Assembly: GCF_017873855.1 (NCBI RefSeq)
Contig: NZ_JAGGKR010000001.1
Coordinates: 2,299,529-2,363,528, forward strand
Source: Methanolinea mesophila
Lineage (GTDB): Archaea; Halobacteriota; Methanomicrobia; Methanomicrobiales; Methanospirillaceae
Direction of reading: 5' to 3'
DNA: 64,000 bases
Each line of letters opens with the position of its first letter. Positions within the stretch are counted from its first letter, which is position 1. The position numbers were made by a program, and so were the translations under genes. This document shows positions 2,001-31,478 of this stretch, one piece after another. Under the pieces are notes generated by a model, which saw nothing but the letters and a program-made list of their open reading frames with translations, searched no databases and had not been told where the DNA came from.

Positions 2001-4735
2001 TGCAACGCTGCCAGGATCCTGTCCCTGCCGACCCTGATGGCCAGGTCGACCTTGTCGATCTCGGGCCCCCCTCCCTGGGCCATGGTCTTCGATCCCCCGC
2101 CTTTACCCCCGAGCAACCCGCAGACCTGGCCGATGACTTCCCCCGCATCGACGTTCTCGGTCCCGGACATGAGCACCACGTGGGCCCTTTCGGAACCTCC
2201 GGCGAGGAGGGCGACCCCGCCCTGTCCGGAGACCGATGCTGCCAGCGCCGCCATGTCACGCGGGGGGAGATCGATGCGTTTCACGACCACCGGGACACCG
2301 TTGATCATCTCGGGCTCGATAGTCTTCACTTCGAGGTCGACCACCTGCTGGGAAAGCCGCTCGATCTTTTTCTTCTGGTCCTTCCACTCGGTGAAGAACC
2401 GGGCCACCGTCGGGGGAAGGTTCTCCTGCTGGACAGAAAGGATCTCGGCGGACTCGGCGACGATCTTCTCCAGCGAGTGGCTGTACTCCAGGGCGGCAAT
2501 CCCGGCCGCAAACTCAAGCCGCTCGATTCCGTCCTGGATATGCTCCACCCGGATGATCTTGATCAGCCCGATCTCCCCGGTCATCCGGCAGTGGGTGCCG
2601 GCACAGGCCTCGACGTCCCCGCCGACCTGCACGACCCGGATCTCCCTCCCCGGGGGGACGCCTCCCTGATAAAGGGCGAATCCGTAGGTCTGCTCGGCCT
2701 TCACTCTGTCCTCGAAACTCACGTCCACGGGCTGGTCGGCCATGACCATCCGGTTTGCGTCGATCTCGATCCGGTGGAGTTCTTCGGGAGTGATATGCTT
2801 GTAATGCCGGATATCCAGGCGCGAACTTTCAGGCCCCTTCTGTGCCCCCGCCTGGTGGATGTGTGCCCCGAGCACGTCCTTGCTCGCCTTGAGAAGGAGG
2901 TGGGTGGCCGTGTGGTGCCGCATCAGGGACCACCGCCGCTCTTCGTCGACGATCCCCTTGACCCGGTCACCGCGCCGGAGCACGCCGCCGGTGATATGGT
3001 GGAGTATCACCTCGCCGATCTTCTGCACGTCGTCGACCCTCACCATGTTCTCGGCCCCGATGAGCATCCCGGTGTCTGCAGGCTGTCCTCCGCCCTCGGG
3101 ATAGTAGAGCGTCTGGTCGAGAACCACGTAGCTCTCGAAGGCGTCGATCACCATCGCGTCGAATTCCATGTCGCAGGTCTGCTCGTAGTAGAGCCTCCTT
3201 GTGACCGGGAGGCCCGCGATCCGTTCGCGGAATTTTGCGAAGGGGTCTTCAACCTCTTCCCGGCCGCTCTCCGAGTGCATGTCGGCGATGAGGGAATAGA
3301 AATTGTCCGGGAGTTCCACCACCGCGCCCTCCGCCACCGCGACCTCCTTGATGATCTCGGGAGGGATCCCATGGGAGTCATAGAGGGTGATCACCTCGCG
3401 GAGCGGCACCCTTTCGCTTTTGCTCTTGTAGTTCCGGGCGATCTTCTGGACGATCTTCGTCCCGCGGGCCATGGTCTGGTTATATTTCTCCACCTCCCGC
3501 TCGATGATCTCTCTCATGATCACCACGTCCTGCTCGAACGACCCGGTACCGATGATCCGCATCTGCTCTTCGACCAGGTCTGCAAGAGGCTCCTGAACTT
3601 TGAGGTCGTTCATCATGCGAAGCGTCCGGCGAAGTACGAGCCTGGCCAGGTATCCTTCACGCACATTCGAGGGGACGATGAGGTCCCCGAGCATATAGGC
3701 CAGACACCGGGAATGGTCGACTACCGAGTAGACCTTCTCGATGGGGGTGATCATCCGGTCGAGTTTCTCGATCGGGACGTCGATCGCGGTGGCGACCTTC
3801 TTCCGGAGCTGGTAGAGGTTCGTTCCGGATATGTCCATAACCCCGGCGAACTTGGCCGAGAGCGCGAGAATCTTGGTGTACTCGACATTGTCGAGCATGT
3901 GCTCCATACCTGCGGATTCCATGACCCGCGAGACCATCTCCGGAAAGACCGCATCGTAGATGGTAGGGGATCCTTTCGATGCCCATACGAACCGTTCGAG
4001 CCCGTACCCGGTATCCACGATGTAGTTGCTCATGGGATAGTAGGTCTCTCCGTTGAGGTCGACCCCCGGTTTCTGGGTTTTTTTCCGGCCGAGGTTCATG
4101 AACACGAGCGTGGCGACCTCGAGCCCCCCGATCAGCACTTCCAGGCTCGGTCCCGCGTTTCCTCCTCCGATCCAGGGGTGTTCCTTATAGGTTACCTTGT
4201 CGAGATCACCCCCAATCGAGGCGATGAACTGTTCACAGAGCTCGACGGTGCGGTCTTTCCAGTAGATCTCCTCAAGGTCCGAGTTGAAGGCGTGGTGGGC
4301 CATCATCTCGAAAAGGGTGAGATGCCGCCCCGATCGTCCGACAGAATCGAGGTCGTTCAACCTGATGCAGGGTTGGGAGATCGTCAGCGGGTTCGCCGGC
4401 GGGGGGACGATGCCGCCGGTTACATAAGGCTGGAAGTCGGCAATCGAAGCAATGGTGAGATAGATGTCGTCCCTCCAGCGGGCGACGACAGGATAGCGTT
4501 CAATCCTCGTATGGCCGTTTCGTTCGAAGAACGAGAGGAACGCCTCCCGCATCTCGTCCACGGAATGGCGGCGGAACACGGGATTCCCGATAAAATTATA
4601 GGTCTCGCAGGGCGCGTCGCCGCAGATCTCCTGGTCCGGGTTCCGGGTCCAGAATGCAGCCCCGCATTTCCTGCACTGTTTCCGTATCAGGCCTTGTGTC
4701 TGAAAATATTCCAGCCGATATTCATCTTCCAGCAT
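1997..4735 (-). CDS. alaS: alanine--tRNA ligase, archaeal type
   Basis: 912 residues. It charges tRNA-Ala with alanine in the cytoplasm. The N-terminus has the archaeal extension with a zinc-like cluster (CRKCGAAFW). It is followed by the class II catalytic domain and the tRNA-recognition region. The editing domain shows HTATH near residue 605 and CAGTH near 710, the zinc ligands that hydrolyse Ser/Gly-tRNA-Ala. The C-terminal coiled coil and DHHA1-type domain are intact (GGKGGGS near 890). Length is normal for archaeal AlaRS. The gene overlaps the downstream membrane-bound regulator by 4 bases. Confidence 0.97.
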   Translation of the reverse strand: MLEDEYRLEYFQTQGLIRKQCRKCGAAFWTRNPDQEICGDAPCETYNFIGNPVFRRHSVDEMREAFLSFFERNGHTRIERYPVVARWRDDIYLTIASIADFQPYVTGGIVPPPANPLTISQPCIRLNDLDSVGRSGRHLTLFEMMAHHAFNSDLEEIYWKDRTVELCEQFIASIGGDLDKVTYKEHPWIGGGNAGPSLEVLIGGLEVATLVFMNLGRKKTQKPGVDLNGETYYPMSNYIVDTGYGLERFVWASKGSPTIYDAVFPEMVSRVMESAGMEHMLDNVEYTKILALSAKFAGVMDISGTNLYQLRKKVATAIDVPIEKLDRMITPIEKVYSVVDHSRCLAYMLGDLIVPSNVREGYLARLVLRRTLRMMNDLKVQEPLADLVEEQMRIIGTGSFEQDVVIMREIIEREVEKYNQTMARGTKIVQKIARNYKSKSERVPLREVITLYDSHGIPPEIIKEVAVAEGAVVELPDNFYSLIADMHSESGREEVEDPFAKFRERIAGLPVTRRLYYEQTCDMEFDAMVIDAFESYVVLDQTLYYPEGGGQPADTGMLIGAENMVRVDDVQKIGEVILHHITGGVLRRGDRVKGIVDEERRWSLMRHHTATHLLLKASKDVLGAHIHQAGAQKGPESSRLDIRHYKHITPEELHRIEIDANRMVMADQPVDVSFEDRVKAEQTYGFALYQGGVPPGREIRVVQVGGDVEACAGTHCRMTGEIGLIKIIRVEHIQDGIERLEFAAGIAALEYSHSLEKIVAESAEILSVQQENLPPTVARFFTEWKDQKKKIERLSQQVVDLEVKTIEPEMINGVPVVVKRIDLPPRDMAALAASVSGQGGVALLAGGSERAHVVLMSGTENVDAGEVIGQVCGLLGGKGGGSKTMAQGGGPEIDKVDLAIRVGRDRILAALQ

Positions 4736-4789
4736 CTTGAACCACGTGATACCAGATTATTCGGTTTCGGAACGATAAAAGACTGTTTA

Positions 4790-5125
4790 TCAGGGGTGTT
4801 TGCCCCCCGTCCATCGTTCCTGGTACCACCGTTGTACCGGGACGTCACGGCCGGTGCAGCAGGCGATCATGACCGCAAGAATATGCCAGCAGGTCCCCCC
4901 GCGGAAAACGAAGTCGCGGCAGGTGCAGAACTCCTCGTCCACGATGTATTCCCCCGATCCCCCCTCGACCACGTAAAAATCCAGGTACCGGAGGACTCTT
5001 CCCTCATTCACCGCATCGATCGCCTTCCTTCCGCGGCTCTTCCAGACATCAAGGATCTTTTCCTCCAGTGCAGGCGTGAGAGATTTTTCCCTGCAGATGG
5101 TCTCAACTAGTTCCCGGAAGTCCAT
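4790..5125 (-). CDS. SWIM zinc-finger protein
   Basis: 111 residues from the ATG at 5125; an in-frame GTG at 5161 would add 12 residues inside nif3. The C-terminal half has the SWIM ligand pattern CTC, about ten residues, then CWH (CTCRDFVFRGGTCWH), a zinc fold that binds DNA or protein. The N-terminal half is helical and charged. The start lies inside the end of nif3 (19-base overlap), so the two genes are co-transcribed. SWIM domains occur in bacterial SNF2 helicases and in archaeal stand-alone proteins; no partner helicase is present here. The exact role is unknown. Confidence 0.85.
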   Translation of the reverse strand: MDFRELVETICREKSLTPALEEKILDVWKSRGRKAIDAVNEGRVLRYLDFYVVEGGSGEYIVDEEFCTCRDFVFRGGTCWHILAVMIACCTGRDVPVQRWYQERWTGGKHP

Positions 5126-5823
5126 AGCGAGAGAGCGGGAGGGTCGTCGATATAGTTCCACCCGAACCTGCGGGCGAGTTCCCGCATGGCCGGTGCTTCC
5201 AGCGAGTAATGGGTCGCCTCGATGAGGGGGATCGGGGCGGCACGGGCCACCGAATGCTTCAGTTCGGCAGAGAGGAAGGCATCCGCGCCCTGTTCGTATG
5301 CTTCCCGTATCAGGAGTGGGTCAAACCCGCTCCCCCCGACGACCGCCAGGCGGGACACTGTCTCAAGCTCGCCCCACACCCGGAGCGGCACCCCGAGCAG
5401 ACCGGAGATTTCGGAGATCGATAGAGGACAATCCCCCACCAGGCCCAGGCTGAGTGGAATGATATCCGAAAGCCGGAGCATCTCCGCCAGCACGTCGTTC
5501 ACCCCCCCGGGGGCGTGGTCGAAGTTCGTGTGCAGGACGTACACATTCATTCCTGATCTGAGCACCCCCCGTAGAAACGCCGCGAGATCGCCGTCTATCT
5601 TCGTTACCGGGGCCCAGATGGGAGTGTGATGGACCACAAGCATGTCCGTACCGTCAAGAAGCGCCTTCTCCACCACCCGCGGGCTCGCATCCAGCGCACA
5701 ATATATCGATCCGGTCTCTTCCCTGCCCTCCACAACCAGCCCGATCCTGCCCGCATCGAACTCTTCCGCAAGCTCGGGAGGGGCTAAGGCCTCCAGATGC
5801 CGGATTACGGCCTCCCTTTCCAT
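5107..5823 (-). CDS. Nif3-like dinuclear metal centre protein
   Basis: 238 residues, the compact form of the Nif3/YbgI family. Metal-binding signatures are visible: VVHHTPIW near residue 62, HTNFDHAPGGVND near 98, and ATHYSLEAPAM near 207, giving the His/Asp/Glu set that holds two metal ions inside a toroidal hexamer. Members have been linked to GTP cyclohydrolase-like or general metal-dependent hydrolase activity, but the physiological substrate is unsettled. It is the first gene of a two-gene unit with the SWIM protein. Confidence 0.9.
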   Translation of the reverse strand: MEREAVIRHLEALAPPELAEEFDAGRIGLVVEGREETGSIYCALDASPRVVEKALLDGTDMLVVHHTPIWAPVTKIDGDLAAFLRGVLRSGMNVYVLHTNFDHAPGGVNDVLAEMLRLSDIIPLSLGLVGDCPLSISEISGLLGVPLRVWGELETVSRLAVVGGSGFDPLLIREAYEQGADAFLSAELKHSVARAAPIPLIEATHYSLEAPAMRELARRFGWNYIDDPPALSLWTSGN

Positions 5824-5885
5824 GGAAGGATATGTGGTGCGGTGAGGTAAAAGAGCACTTATTACTGCAAGTAATAAACACTACC

Positions 5886-5895
5886 TATAAATATT
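5886..5895 (+). promoter_or_regulatory. TATA box of a probable leaderless transcript
   Basis: TATAAATATT lies 22-31 bases before the ATG at 5917, the distance expected when transcription starts at or next to the start codon. No Shine-Dalgarno sequence precedes this ATG. The neighbouring DNA is strongly A/T-rich in an otherwise GC-rich region. Confidence 0.65.
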
Positions 5896-5916
5896 CATAT
5901 AAAAATATACCATGGT

Positions 5917-7425
5917 ATGGACAAGTCCATCGATCTGATCAATCAGAGGATCAGGGACGGGAATGCGCGGGTGGTGACCGCAGAAGAGATGCCTGCCCTT
6001 GTATCCGAACTGGGGGAGGAGGGGGCGCTTGCCGAGGTTGACGTGGTGACGACAGGGACCTTCGGCGCGATGTGCTCCTCGGGGACCTTCCTCAACTTCG
6101 GGCATGCGGATCCACCCATCAGGATGGAGAGAGTCTGGCTCAACGACGTGGAGGCATATGCGGGGCTCGCCGCGGTGGACGCCTATATCGGGGCAACCCA
6201 GGAGTCAACCACCCGGGAGGACCAGTACGGCGGGGCTCACGTTATCGAGGATTTTATCGCCGGAAAGTCCGTTGAGCTCAGGGCGATCTCCCGCGGAACC
6301 GATTGTTATCCGCGAAGGACCATAAATACCGAGCTGCGCCTGGAGAACCTCAACCAGGCGATCATGGTGAACCCACGGAATGCATACCAGCGGTATAACG
6401 CGGCGTCGAACAGCACCGATCGTACCATGTTCACCTACATGGGAATGCTTCTCCCAAACCACGGAAACGTGACCTACTCGGGAGCGGGACTTCTGAACCC
6501 CATCTCGAACGACCCGGGGTTCCGGCTGATCGGGAGTGGCGTCCCTGTCTTCCTCGGCGGGGGTAAGGGGATGGTGGTCGGAGAAGGGACCCAGCACTCC
6601 CCGGGGTCAGGGTTCGGGACGCTGATGGTGACCTGTGACGTTAAGGAGATGTCTTCCGATTACCTCAGGGCGGCGACTATGCACGGCTACGGGGTAACGC
6701 TCTACGTAGGGCTTGGCATCCCCCTCCCGGTCCTTGATATCGAGACGGTGAGGAACTGCGCGGTCAGGGACGAGGACATCGCCGTGGACATTGTCGATTA
6801 CGGTATTCCTGCCAGGGATCGCCCGTCGTTCCGCAAGGTCACCTATGCGGAGTTAAAAAGCGGATTCGTCGAGATCGCGGGCGAAGAGGTGCGGACCTCA
6901 TCGCTCTCAAGTTATCGCAAGGCGAAGGAGGTCGCAACGGAGCTCAAGAGTTGGATCGAGAAGGGATCGATGGAGCTGGCGCTTCCAACCCGCAAAATCT
7001 CCTCGCAGAAGAAGGCCATGCCCATGAAAGAGACGGTGCATGCTCCGAGGGTACTTGATATCATGGACACACGGGTGATCTCCATCGGGGAACACGACGA
7101 GATCCGGACCGCGGCCATGAGGCTCCTGAAAGGTGAGACGAACCATCTCCCGGTGATCGATCAGGCCGGGGTGCTCGTCGGGATAGTGACTACGTACGAT
7201 ATCTCGAAGGCGGTCGTGAACCCGTCCAAGGGGAGTCTTGTGCGGGATATCATGAGGACGAAGGTCATCACTACCACCCCGGAGGAGCCTGTCGATGTTG
7301 CGATCCAGAAGCTGGAGAAGAACAATATCAGCGCCCTTCCCGTGGTGGACAAGGGACATCACGTCCTGGGGATGCTCACCGCGATGGACCTCTCGAAGCT
7401 TTTCGGGGGGAGGTGGCTGAAATGA
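5917..7425 (+). CDS. L-aspartate semialdehyde sulfurtransferase (DUF39/HcyBio with CBS pair)
   Basis: 502 residues. The first 370 or so form the homocysteine-biosynthesis (DUF39) domain, which in Methanosarcina (MA1821) is required with its ferredoxin partner to turn aspartate semialdehyde plus a sulfide source into homocysteine, the methionine precursor. Two conserved cysteines are present: Cys53 (MCSSGTF) and Cys130 (GTDCYP). The C-terminus, about 380-500, is a CBS pair, presumably an adenosyl-ligand sensor. The start codon at 5917 follows a TATA box at leaderless spacing. The stop overlaps the ferredoxin gene as ATGA. Pathway assignment is by family knowledge. Confidence 0.93.
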   Translation: MDKSIDLINQRIRDGNARVVTAEEMPALVSELGEEGALAEVDVVTTGTFGAMCSSGTFLNFGHADPPIRMERVWLNDVEAYAGLAAVDAYIGATQESTTREDQYGGAHVIEDFIAGKSVELRAISRGTDCYPRRTINTELRLENLNQAIMVNPRNAYQRYNAASNSTDRTMFTYMGMLLPNHGNVTYSGAGLLNPISNDPGFRLIGSGVPVFLGGGKGMVVGEGTQHSPGSGFGTLMVTCDVKEMSSDYLRAATMHGYGVTLYVGLGIPLPVLDIETVRNCAVRDEDIAVDIVDYGIPARDRPSFRKVTYAELKSGFVEIAGEEVRTSSLSSYRKAKEVATELKSWIEKGSMELALPTRKISSQKKAMPMKETVHAPRVLDIMDTRVISIGEHDEIRTAAMRLLKGETNHLPVIDQAGVLVGIVTTYDISKAVVNPSKGSLVRDIMRTKVITTTPEEPVDVAIQKLEKNNISALPVVDKGHHVLGMLTAMDLSKLFGGRWLK

Positions 7426-28808: not shown

Positions 28809-28886
28809 AATCGCGACCCCATGAACAAAATATTTTTTCACCAATCAGGGATAATGGGTGAAGAAGAGAATTCCCGGGGGAGAGTA

Positions 28887-29156
28887 ATGGATACCACTAC
28901 GCAATTAATTGTTTATACACTGGAATTTTGTCCTAATTGCGAACTGCTCAAGGAATTCCTGTCCGGCAGCGGGATCCCCTATGCCGAACGGGATCTCTCG
29001 TCCGCGGAGTCGCTCACCGAGCTCCGGGTGAACGGGGTCTTTGTGAACGAGGCCCCGGTGCTGCAGAACGACGACCGGTTCCTCACTTCGGAAGACCTGT
29101 TCTCTTCCGGAAAGGTCAGGGAAGACCAGATTAAGAACCTGATCGAGGGAGCCTGA
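28887..29156 (+). CDS. glutaredoxin/NrdH-like redoxin
   Basis: 89 residues from the ATG at 28887, preceded by GGGGGAG. It has a thioredoxin-fold redox site CPNC near residue 14 (LEFCPNCELLK) and the cis-Pro region EAPVLQ. The next gene, nrdD, starts at the very next base after its stop. In Methanosarcina barkeri a NrdH-type redoxin reduces the class III ribonucleotide reductase, so this protein is the likely electron donor for NrdD here. A general glutaredoxin role is the alternative. Confidence 0.88.
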   Translation: MDTTTQLIVYTLEFCPNCELLKEFLSGSGIPYAERDLSSAESLTELRVNGVFVNEAPVLQNDDRFLTSEDLFSSGKVREDQIKNLIEGA

Positions 29157-31340
29157 ATGGCAGCCCGGGAGACCAGGCAGGCAACCCTTGACGGTGTCTT
29201 CGTCTCCCCGATGCCCCCCGTGCGTACCACGGACGGGCATATCGTCGAGTGGGACAGGGAGCGCATCGTCAGGCAGATCGTCGAGGAAACCAGCCTGGTA
29301 AAGACGTTCTACGGGTTCGAGAGCGCCAACGAGGAACTGGCCCAGGAAATCGCCCGCACGGTGGAGCAGCGGATCCAGTCTATGGGGATCCAGGCTCTGA
29401 GCGGCCCCCTTATCCGCGAGATCATGAATATCACCCTGCTCGAGCAGGGAATGGTCCAGTACAGGAATGTCTGCACAAGGGTGGGGACACCGGTCTTCGA
29501 TGCCCACCTCATCGACGTGGGGCGGGGATTCGAGGCCAAAGACAATGCAAACCTGCAGGAGAACGCGGAGACCTCACATAAGAAGAAAGCGGACAAGATC
29601 AGCAAGGAACAGTACCTCCTCCAGCTGCCGCCCCACCTCGCCGATCACCACCTGGCGGGAGACATCCATATCCATGACCTCGAGTATTTCGGGACCAGGC
29701 CGTTCTGTCAGGACTGGGACCTGCGCTACTTCTTCTACTACGGGTTGATGCCCGACGGGAACGGGACCAAGGCGTCGGTGGCCGGCCCCGCGAAGCGGTG
29801 CGAGGTCGCGGTCCTCCACGCGGTGAAAGCGCTCGGAAGCGCCCAGACAAACTTCGCGGGCGGGCAGGGGTACTATAATTTCCTCACGTTCCTCTCCCCG
29901 TTCTTCGAGGGAATGGAGTACGGGGAGATCCGGCAGATGATGCAGATGTTCGTGTACGAGATGACCCAGATGATGGTCGCCCGTGGCGGACAACTGGTAT
30001 TCTCTTCCGTTCAGCTCAGTCCCGGGGTGCCATCGCTTTGGAGGGACAAGCCCTGTGTCTACAAGGGCAAGGTGTGGGACGGGTCTTCCGGACCGAGGAG
30101 GACTTACGGGGAGTTCGAACGAGAAGTCCGCCTGTTATTCAGGGCGATGATTGAGGTGATGATGGAGGGGGACTACTGGGGCAAGCCGTTCAGCTTCCCC
30201 AAACCCGAGATCAGCATCGAGCCGGATTTCTTAAAAGAGGACGAAGAATTCAACAGGAATAACCCCGATCTTCCCACCTACCAGGACCTCTATCTTCTTA
30301 CATTCGAGCTCGCGTCGAAGTTCGGGACGCCGTATTACGATAACCAGATACCCGCATACCGGGGCGCGGGGAAGGGGATCTCCTGTTACCAGTGCTGCGC
30401 CTACCAGTTCTCCGCCCTTGCGGACGAGGACACGCAGTTCGAAGATAAGCTGTTCTTCAGGGACGGGAGGCACTTCTCGATGGGTTCGTGGCAGGTGGTC
30501 TCCCTCAACTGCACAAGGGCGGCGTACGAAGCAGAAGGGGACGATGCCCGGCTTTTTGCCGAGCTTCGCGCACTGATGGACATCTGCGTCGAGGTATTCC
30601 GGATCAAGCGCCGCTGGCTGGAGATCATCCGCGCCAATGGTCGGATGCCGTTCGCGATGCAACGACCGAAAGACCCGGTTTCAGGGGAGCGGGGTTCCAT
30701 CGCGGTCGATCTGGACGGGCTTGTCTACACCATCGGGGTGGTAGGGGTGAACGAGATGGTGCAGCACCACGCCGGCGCCCAGCTGCACGAATCGAAAGAT
30801 GCGTTCAAGCTGGCGGTGAGGGCCATGACCGAGATGGAACTCTACGCCCGCGAACTCTCCGAGCGGCACCACATGACTATCGCACTTGCCAGGACGCCGG
30901 CGGAAACGACGGGACAGCGGTTCGCGGTCTCGGACCTGCTGAACAAGAACTACCGGGACTCTGCAGAGAAGGTGATCAAGGGAGACCTGGAGACGGCGCT
31001 AAAGAGGCTCGGAACCACCCGCGACCTTCCCATCTACTACACGAACGGGACCCACGTGGCACCGGGGGCGAACATCACCCTCGCGAAGAGGATGGAGATC
31101 GAGCACGTCTTTTTCCCCATCGTGGACGGGGGAAACATCTTCCACATCTGGCTCGGCGAATCGAGGCCCGACCCCCGGGGCCTGATGGACATGGCGATGA
31201 AACTCTGCCGGACCACGCAGATCGGATATTTCGCATTCACCCGCGACCTGACGGTTTCTCTTCGCAGGTTCAGGGAATTCCCCTCGGGCGGGGAGAAGGT
31301 CCCGGCATGGATGCCGGGCTCCTCGAAGATACAGGCCTGA
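29157..31340 (+). CDS. nrdD: anaerobic ribonucleoside-triphosphate reductase (class III), lacking C-terminal glycyl-radical region
   Basis: 727 residues. An ATP-cone (about 20-110, EWDRERIVRQIVEETSL) regulates activity. The ten-stranded barrel has cysteines in SCYQCCAYQF near 410 and SLNCTRAAY near 450, and the conserved end region GGNIFHIWLGESRPDP and IGYFAFTRDLTV. The protein then ends after 28 residues (stop at 31338). Family members normally continue here with a four-Cys zinc ribbon and the RxxGY glycyl-radical loop; neither is present in any frame before the T-rich tract. It is either a split or unusual enzyme, or a damaged gene. It makes dNTPs anaerobically if active. Confidence 0.93.
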   Translation: MAARETRQATLDGVFVSPMPPVRTTDGHIVEWDRERIVRQIVEETSLVKTFYGFESANEELAQEIARTVEQRIQSMGIQALSGPLIREIMNITLLEQGMVQYRNVCTRVGTPVFDAHLIDVGRGFEAKDNANLQENAETSHKKKADKISKEQYLLQLPPHLADHHLAGDIHIHDLEYFGTRPFCQDWDLRYFFYYGLMPDGNGTKASVAGPAKRCEVAVLHAVKALGSAQTNFAGGQGYYNFLTFLSPFFEGMEYGEIRQMMQMFVYEMTQMMVARGGQLVFSSVQLSPGVPSLWRDKPCVYKGKVWDGSSGPRRTYGEFEREVRLLFRAMIEVMMEGDYWGKPFSFPKPEISIEPDFLKEDEEFNRNNPDLPTYQDLYLLTFELASKFGTPYYDNQIPAYRGAGKGISCYQCCAYQFSALADEDTQFEDKLFFRDGRHFSMGSWQVVSLNCTRAAYEAEGDDARLFAELRALMDICVEVFRIKRRWLEIIRANGRMPFAMQRPKDPVSGERGSIAVDLDGLVYTIGVVGVNEMVQHHAGAQLHESKDAFKLAVRAMTEMELYARELSERHHMTIALARTPAETTGQRFAVSDLLNKNYRDSAEKVIKGDLETALKRLGTTRDLPIYYTNGTHVAPGANITLAKRMEIEHVFFPIVDGGNIFHIWLGESRPDPRGLMDMAMKLCRTTQIGYFAFTRDLTVSLRRFREFPSGGEKVPAWMPGSSKIQA

Positions 31341-31359
31341 TCTTTTAATTTTTTTTATT
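31341..31359 (+). terminator. T-rich terminator after nrdD
   Basis: TCTTTTAATTTTTTTTATT immediately follows the nrdD stop. Archaeal RNA polymerase terminates at such T tracts without needing a stem. Confidence 0.6.
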
Positions 31360-31478
31360 CCTGCGATTGACATATTTTTTGGCATGGCGAGCCGGGGGCT
31401 TTCCCCGATCGTGGCAACTCCTCGGGAGATATCTCGGAAATAAGGTAATCCTGACTGACATCGCTCAATATTACCACG

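Follow-up and report, generated by a model that had tools for sequence, protein, structure and literature searches.

The nrdD gene of Methanolinea mesophila, located in the 64,000-nucleotide stretch of DNA analysed here (the window), encodes the catalytic chain of a class III ribonucleotide reductase (RNR) without its glycyl-radical domain (GRD), and a GRD of the NrdD family is encoded by a separate gene, 1.05 Mb away in the same genome. The window NrdD and the distant GRD very probably constitute an obligate two-gene class III RNR, both parts of which are under selection.

A NrdD catalytic body without its glycyl-radical domain

The features of the nrdD locus in the window are the following:

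28887-29156, plus strand: nrdH-like glutaredoxin, 89 aa, CPNC motif (PF00462, weak match to TIGR02194, NrdH)
29157-31340, plus strand: nrdD body, class III RNR catalytic chain without GRD, 727 aa
29220-29462, plus strand: ATP-cone, residues 22-102 (PF03477, E 4e-4, under the curated cut-off)
29544-29552, plus strand: Asn-Ala-Asn active-site flap, residues 130-132 (NxN flap, from the alignment)
29706-29708, plus strand: Cys184, invariant active-site cysteine (64/64 alignment rows)
30384-30398, plus strand: CYQCC finger loop, residues 410-414 (Cys414 in 64/64 rows, Cys413 in 62/64)
31257-31337, plus strand: 27-residue Cys-free tail replacing the GRD (read from the letters)
31341-31360, plus strand: T-rich run after the TGA stop, presumed terminator (read from the letters)

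The window NrdD matched two profiles of the NrdD-family body: PF13597 (NRDD), covered at positions 1-510 of 562 (E 6e-133, 445 bits), and TIGR02487, covered at positions 1-529 of 581 (465 bits against a cut-off of 326). The last ~50 profile positions, the site of the zinc ribbon and the RxxGY loop, were missing; identity to four full-length NrdDs from other orders was 54-69%. The catalytic residues were conserved in the alignment of 64 NrdD rows: the flap residues (NxN flap of NrdD, PMC11226230) were present in all 30 split rows and in 33 (Asn130) and 32 (Asn132) of the 34 full-length rows. The cysteines Cys184 and Cys414 had no exceptions. From what is generally known of the family, we take Cys414 to be the thiyl cysteine.

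As the original prediction had stated, the protein is intact through FAFTRDLTV (residues 692-700, 31230-31256) and continues without the Cys4 ribbon and RxxGY. The tail was also correctly described as Cys-free and followed by a stop and a T-rich run, its length being 27 residues instead of the 28 predicted. This tail evolves fast (pN 0.35-0.47 versus six relatives), and a few relatives retain in it the motif TVCL, which corresponds to the first zinc cysteine of the full-length enzymes; it therefore looks like, and presumably is, the leftover of an old linker. The 30 bodies compared (the window NrdD and 29 relatives) all end ~10-40 residues past TRDLTV or a variant of it, without a GRD, and none of the 30 has the RxxGY loop on the same chain. 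The alignment with other Methanomicrobiales proposed at the outset thus shows that the 3′ end of nrdD is not the result of missequencing or of a frameshift, since all the bodies examined end alike. The search for a second nrdD, also proposed there, gave a negative result: no other NrdD body was detected in the genome (2.66 Mb in 2 contigs, 99% complete), including by a six-frame PF13597 search.

A stand-alone gene encodes the missing domain

The six-frame NRDD search of the whole genome matched profile positions 506-562, besides the window body, only at C1:1276915-1277070, outside the window. The prediction that the missing part is not encoded before the terminator was thus borne out, as was the proposal of a split enzyme with the radical domain in another gene; the suggested search for small proteins combining a Cys4 ribbon with RxxGY yielded a single gene:

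C1:1276720-1277082 (L032:1306-1668), outside the window: GRD gene (P0001), 120 aa, found by the six-frame NRDD search

The C-terminus of its product is organised as in other NrdDs (Cys4 ribbon, SRVTGY loop and a C-terminal segment), and is preceded by ~65 Cys-rich, zinc-ribbon-like residues with further CxxC motifs, which gave weak profile matches to generic zinc ribbons only. PF01228 (Gly_radical) did not match this protein at E values up to 1, and no enzyme of that family was detected in the genome. A profile built from GRD relatives matched the Prevotella copri NrdD (8p23) with E=8e-8, SRVTGY falling on its radical loop, whose radical residue is Gly711 (PMC11226230).

SRVTGY was kept in 80/80 GRD loci from the genome collection, whose record titles correspond to Methanomicrobiales (a few to Euryarchaeota only), and ten cysteines, Gly95 and the SRVTGY loop were invariant across 47 GRD sequences, including three viral copies. 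The dN/dS of the GRD gene was ~0.07-0.14 against seven relatives (the eighth pair was saturated), as expected under purifying selection. The order of the neighbouring genes is conserved (names by sequence reading): a deoxyhypusine-synthase-like gene, pyrF, GRD, cbiZ (in most cases overlapping the stop codon of the GRD gene) and RPA genes. In the host genomes the GRD gene lies beside pyrF and cbiZ and is not adjacent to nrdD.

The AF2 model of L112, a relative of the GRD, reached a pLDDT of 74 with low confidence in the Gly loop, and no NrdD appeared among its Foldseek / VIA-align rows; a body model from five sequences was poor (pLDDT 52). A diverged GRD paralogue with a KAGYLQ loop was found in one relative (G013, L105:1123-1476), on a contig also bearing nuclease-like and Orc1/Cdc6-like frames (named by eye), which is perhaps a mobile element.

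Partner genes and other ribonucleotide reductases

The nrdH-like gene, profile-scanned as the longer frame 28821-29156, ends immediately 5′ of the nrdD ATG, and an NrdH homologue was found upstream of nrdD at 30/30 loci examined; its product is presumed to be the reductant of the window NrdD. Both nrdG and a class II nrdJ, for which a genome search had been suggested, are present: an NrdG2-type activase was detected in 41/41 genomes (TIGR02495 above cut-off), the M. mesophila copy carrying CPLRCSYC, and this genome encodes a class II-type NrdJ of 607 aa (C1:2061877-2063700; L036:1878-3701). The split enzyme may be non-essential in M. mesophila because of this NrdJ. PF02867 was present in 26 of the 34 high-quality relatives. 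One relative (G025) encodes, besides the split enzyme, a second, full-length NrdD of a distant type (569-aa frame; L104, region C1:592215-592376), with an NrdG-like match ~2 kb away.

Distribution and evolution of the split

The relatives analysed comprised 41 genomes, 34 of high quality. Body and GRD were each present in 34/34 high-quality Methanomicrobiales genomes, belonging to six families, and body identity was 74-85% across 27 genera, with the catalytic residues intact. Five genomes of one genus of the same order (g28) had neither body nor GRD; the weak matches found in them fall in frames of ~1145 aa that presumably encode DNA polymerase D. Eight relatives (G006, G009, G012, G015, G018, G019, G023, G039; 92-99% complete) showed no class I or II RNR by PF02867 or PF17975, and their PF13597 matches were the body and the stand-alone GRD only; consequently, these relatives probably have no RNR besides the split enzyme.

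Outside Methanomicrobiales, the NRDD proteins among the matches listed were mostly full-length (profile 1-562), the full-length relatives having TVCLSCC...CPRC...SRITGY within one chain. The 30 split bodies fell on one side of a branch of the body tree (SH-aLRT 100), adjoining full-length Methanosarcinales-like NrdDs. This is most simply explained by a single split, no later than the root of Methanomicrobiales. Two full-length NrdDs of the sister group, L098 and L107 (TVCLNDF, TVCTDGG), retain a single Cys where the first zinc pair would be, and erosion of the zinc site may have begun earlier than the split.

The NrdD bodies of several relatives (G034, L193:695-4423; G013, G021, G025, G027-G029, G033) contain long insertions that keep the reading frame, located at Cys184 and around Cys410-425; the L193 insert starts with C and ends with HN ahead of the catalytic Cys, and is intein-like. 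Split NrdDs were also sought elsewhere in the phylum, where most of the broken-looking cases among the matches listed were insertions or contig ends, the insertions in these long frames probably being inteins.

Viral copies

A viral contig of 127.7 kb (IMGVR_UViG_3300002220_006617, L206) encodes GRD, NrdH and a truncated NrdD body in tandem on one strand:

4324-4728, same strand as NrdH and body: GRD, SRVTGY
4756-4998, same strand as GRD and body: NrdH
5001-7073, same strand as GRD and NrdH: truncated NrdD body, ending FAFTRDITISKNEYRWRRS

The body groups with the host split bodies (96/92) on a long branch, and the frames near the cassette are tail-, MCM- and thymidylate-synthase-like (by eye). 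This cassette is the strongest sequence-based evidence that GRD, NrdH and body belong to one system.

Stand-alone GRDs with SRVTGY were found on six other viral contigs: L198:3736-4071, L199:2401-2727, L200:4932-5333, L201 ~5001-5321, L209 ~6001-6294 and L210 ~6001-6306, some of them with terminase- or baseplate-like frames. No NrdD body was detected in the contig stretches examined of L198-L200, nor by eye in those of L201, L209 and L210. These contigs may supply radical subunits to the host body. Another stand-alone NrdD-type GRD, with SRIVGY, lies on a virus-like contig (L192:699-1067, P0002; identical to L195) from a MAG of another family (f10).

Other viral NRDD C-terminal proteins are short (59-100 aa; L202:170-373, L203:29-205, L204:4824-5123), have RVVGY, RIVGY or RVMGY without a clear Cys4 ribbon, and may be NrdD pieces split by introns. 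The L204 gene is flanked by a portal-like and a head-like frame, an arrangement resembling that of Mu-like phages; further along this contig (6816-8197) overlapping frames repeat SPRMRGN, IPAHAGE and YPRACGG, with the look of a translated CRISPR array, so that L204 may represent a prophage next to the CRISPR array of a bacterium.

Discussion

The class II-type NrdJ of M. mesophila, together with the PF02867 matches in 26/34 high-quality relatives, would favour a decayed gene, with a NrdD already deprived of its radical end and bound to disappear, the dNTPs coming from NrdJ. This possibility, contained in the original prediction, is extremely improbable in view of the conservation of the body across 27 genera with its catalytic residues, the retention of the GRD in trans under purifying selection, the eight relatives without another detected RNR, and the joint absence of both genes in g28. 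A different radical source had also been envisaged: the body would use it, and the GRD would be an unrelated zinc protein or part of another enzyme, as its extra Cys-rich N-terminus and its lack of linkage to nrdD in the hosts might suggest. We consider this very unlikely, since the GRD matches the NRDD C-terminus, is present or absent together with the body and stands in tandem with it in the viral cassette, and since no Gly_radical (PF01228) enzyme was detected in the genome.

Trans-splicing of protein or RNA might instead join the products of both genes, once made, into a single full-length NrdD, the intein-like insertions inside the bodies of relatives (L193) speaking for an intein-prone family. 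However, an intein half would need more than the ~10-40 residues of the variable body tails, the GRD gene starts with a codon of its own, and the conserved extra domain of the GRD would break up the joined enzyme, which makes this explanation extremely unlikely.

The two-gene enzyme would work as follows. The window gene would supply the catalytic body with ATP-cone, flap, barrel and thiyl cysteine; NrdG would remove a hydrogen from the GRD at Gly95, perhaps solely while the GRD is docked, as in YfiD, whose activation has been proposed to occur only in the docked state (PMC8683613). The Gly loop of the complexed GRD would then enter the barrel beside Cys414, the resulting thiyl radical would begin NTP reduction, and NrdH would re-reduce the cysteines of the body. 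The GRD would thus resemble a YfiD/GrcA "spare part" that has become permanent. In P. copri NrdD the GRD is thought to shift mostly as a rigid unit (PMC11226230), and installing the radical involves flipping of the GRD out of the core (PMC12662201); both make a detachable GRD plausible.

The closest known enzyme by sequence and tree is the NrdD of Methanosarcina barkeri, which works with NrdH (subclass NrdD3, PMC9176816). Both share the NrdH-type redoxin, NrdG and the same catalytic body, whereas the NrdD3 GRD forms the C-terminal end of the catalytic chain and the present one is encoded by a gene of its own, together with an additional Cys-rich domain at its N-terminus. The likeness to GrcA put forward in the original prediction is useful as a working analogy: YfiD/GrcA and T4 Y06I (PMC8683613) are also small stand-alone GRDs acting in trans to a large body, and also virus-borne. 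It fails in two respects: those proteins belong to Pfam Gly_radical and repair an O2-cleaved enzyme that was made whole, whereas the present GRD, which has zinc-ribbon cysteines, falls within the NrdD family and is apparently a permanent subunit of a body encoded without GRD. The split NrdJa/NrdJb (PMC9669993) is another two-chain RNR, of class II and not, as here, class III; its second chain carries the C-terminal zinc-finger part. The nrdD coding sequence is also in more than one piece in phages (PMC3653736), where the breaks are introns, inteins or unexplained and the pieces are neighbours; here an archaeal order has two genes that are stable and unlinked, and neither an intein nor an intron was seen where the sequence is divided.

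The searchable literature, a coverage that leaves out most subscription papers, yielded no description of a split archaeal class III RNR, and term searches within four RNR surveys (PMC9531940, PMC9669993, PMC4390871, PMC3019208) gave no mention of the arrangement. PMC9531940 left out proteins of <400 residues, so the GRD would stay hidden there. The split enzyme thus appears to be a previously unreported form of class III RNR.

We also propose, tentatively and as a rather less likely than likely extension, that the GRD is a disposable radical subunit: O2 would cleave only the 13-kDa piece, which would be replaced while the 80-kDa body survives, and viruses of these archaea would bring along a GRD to keep the host body working, or to take it over, during infection. 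Spare parts have been validated for pyruvate formate-lyase only (PMC8683613); if true, this would be a spare-part system for another glycyl-radical enzyme.

The papers cited describe class III RNRs whose storage radical lies on the catalytic chain. With a radical subunit that is separate throughout an order, nature would have taken apart the installation, docking and repair of the radical: the GRD could be produced, radicalised and exchanged independently, and questions on GRD movement (PMC11226230, PMC12662201) and on the spare parts of glycyl-radical enzymes (PMC8683613) would become directly testable. The split also explains why some methanogens without another detected RNR seem, gene by gene, to lack a working DNA-precursor enzyme.
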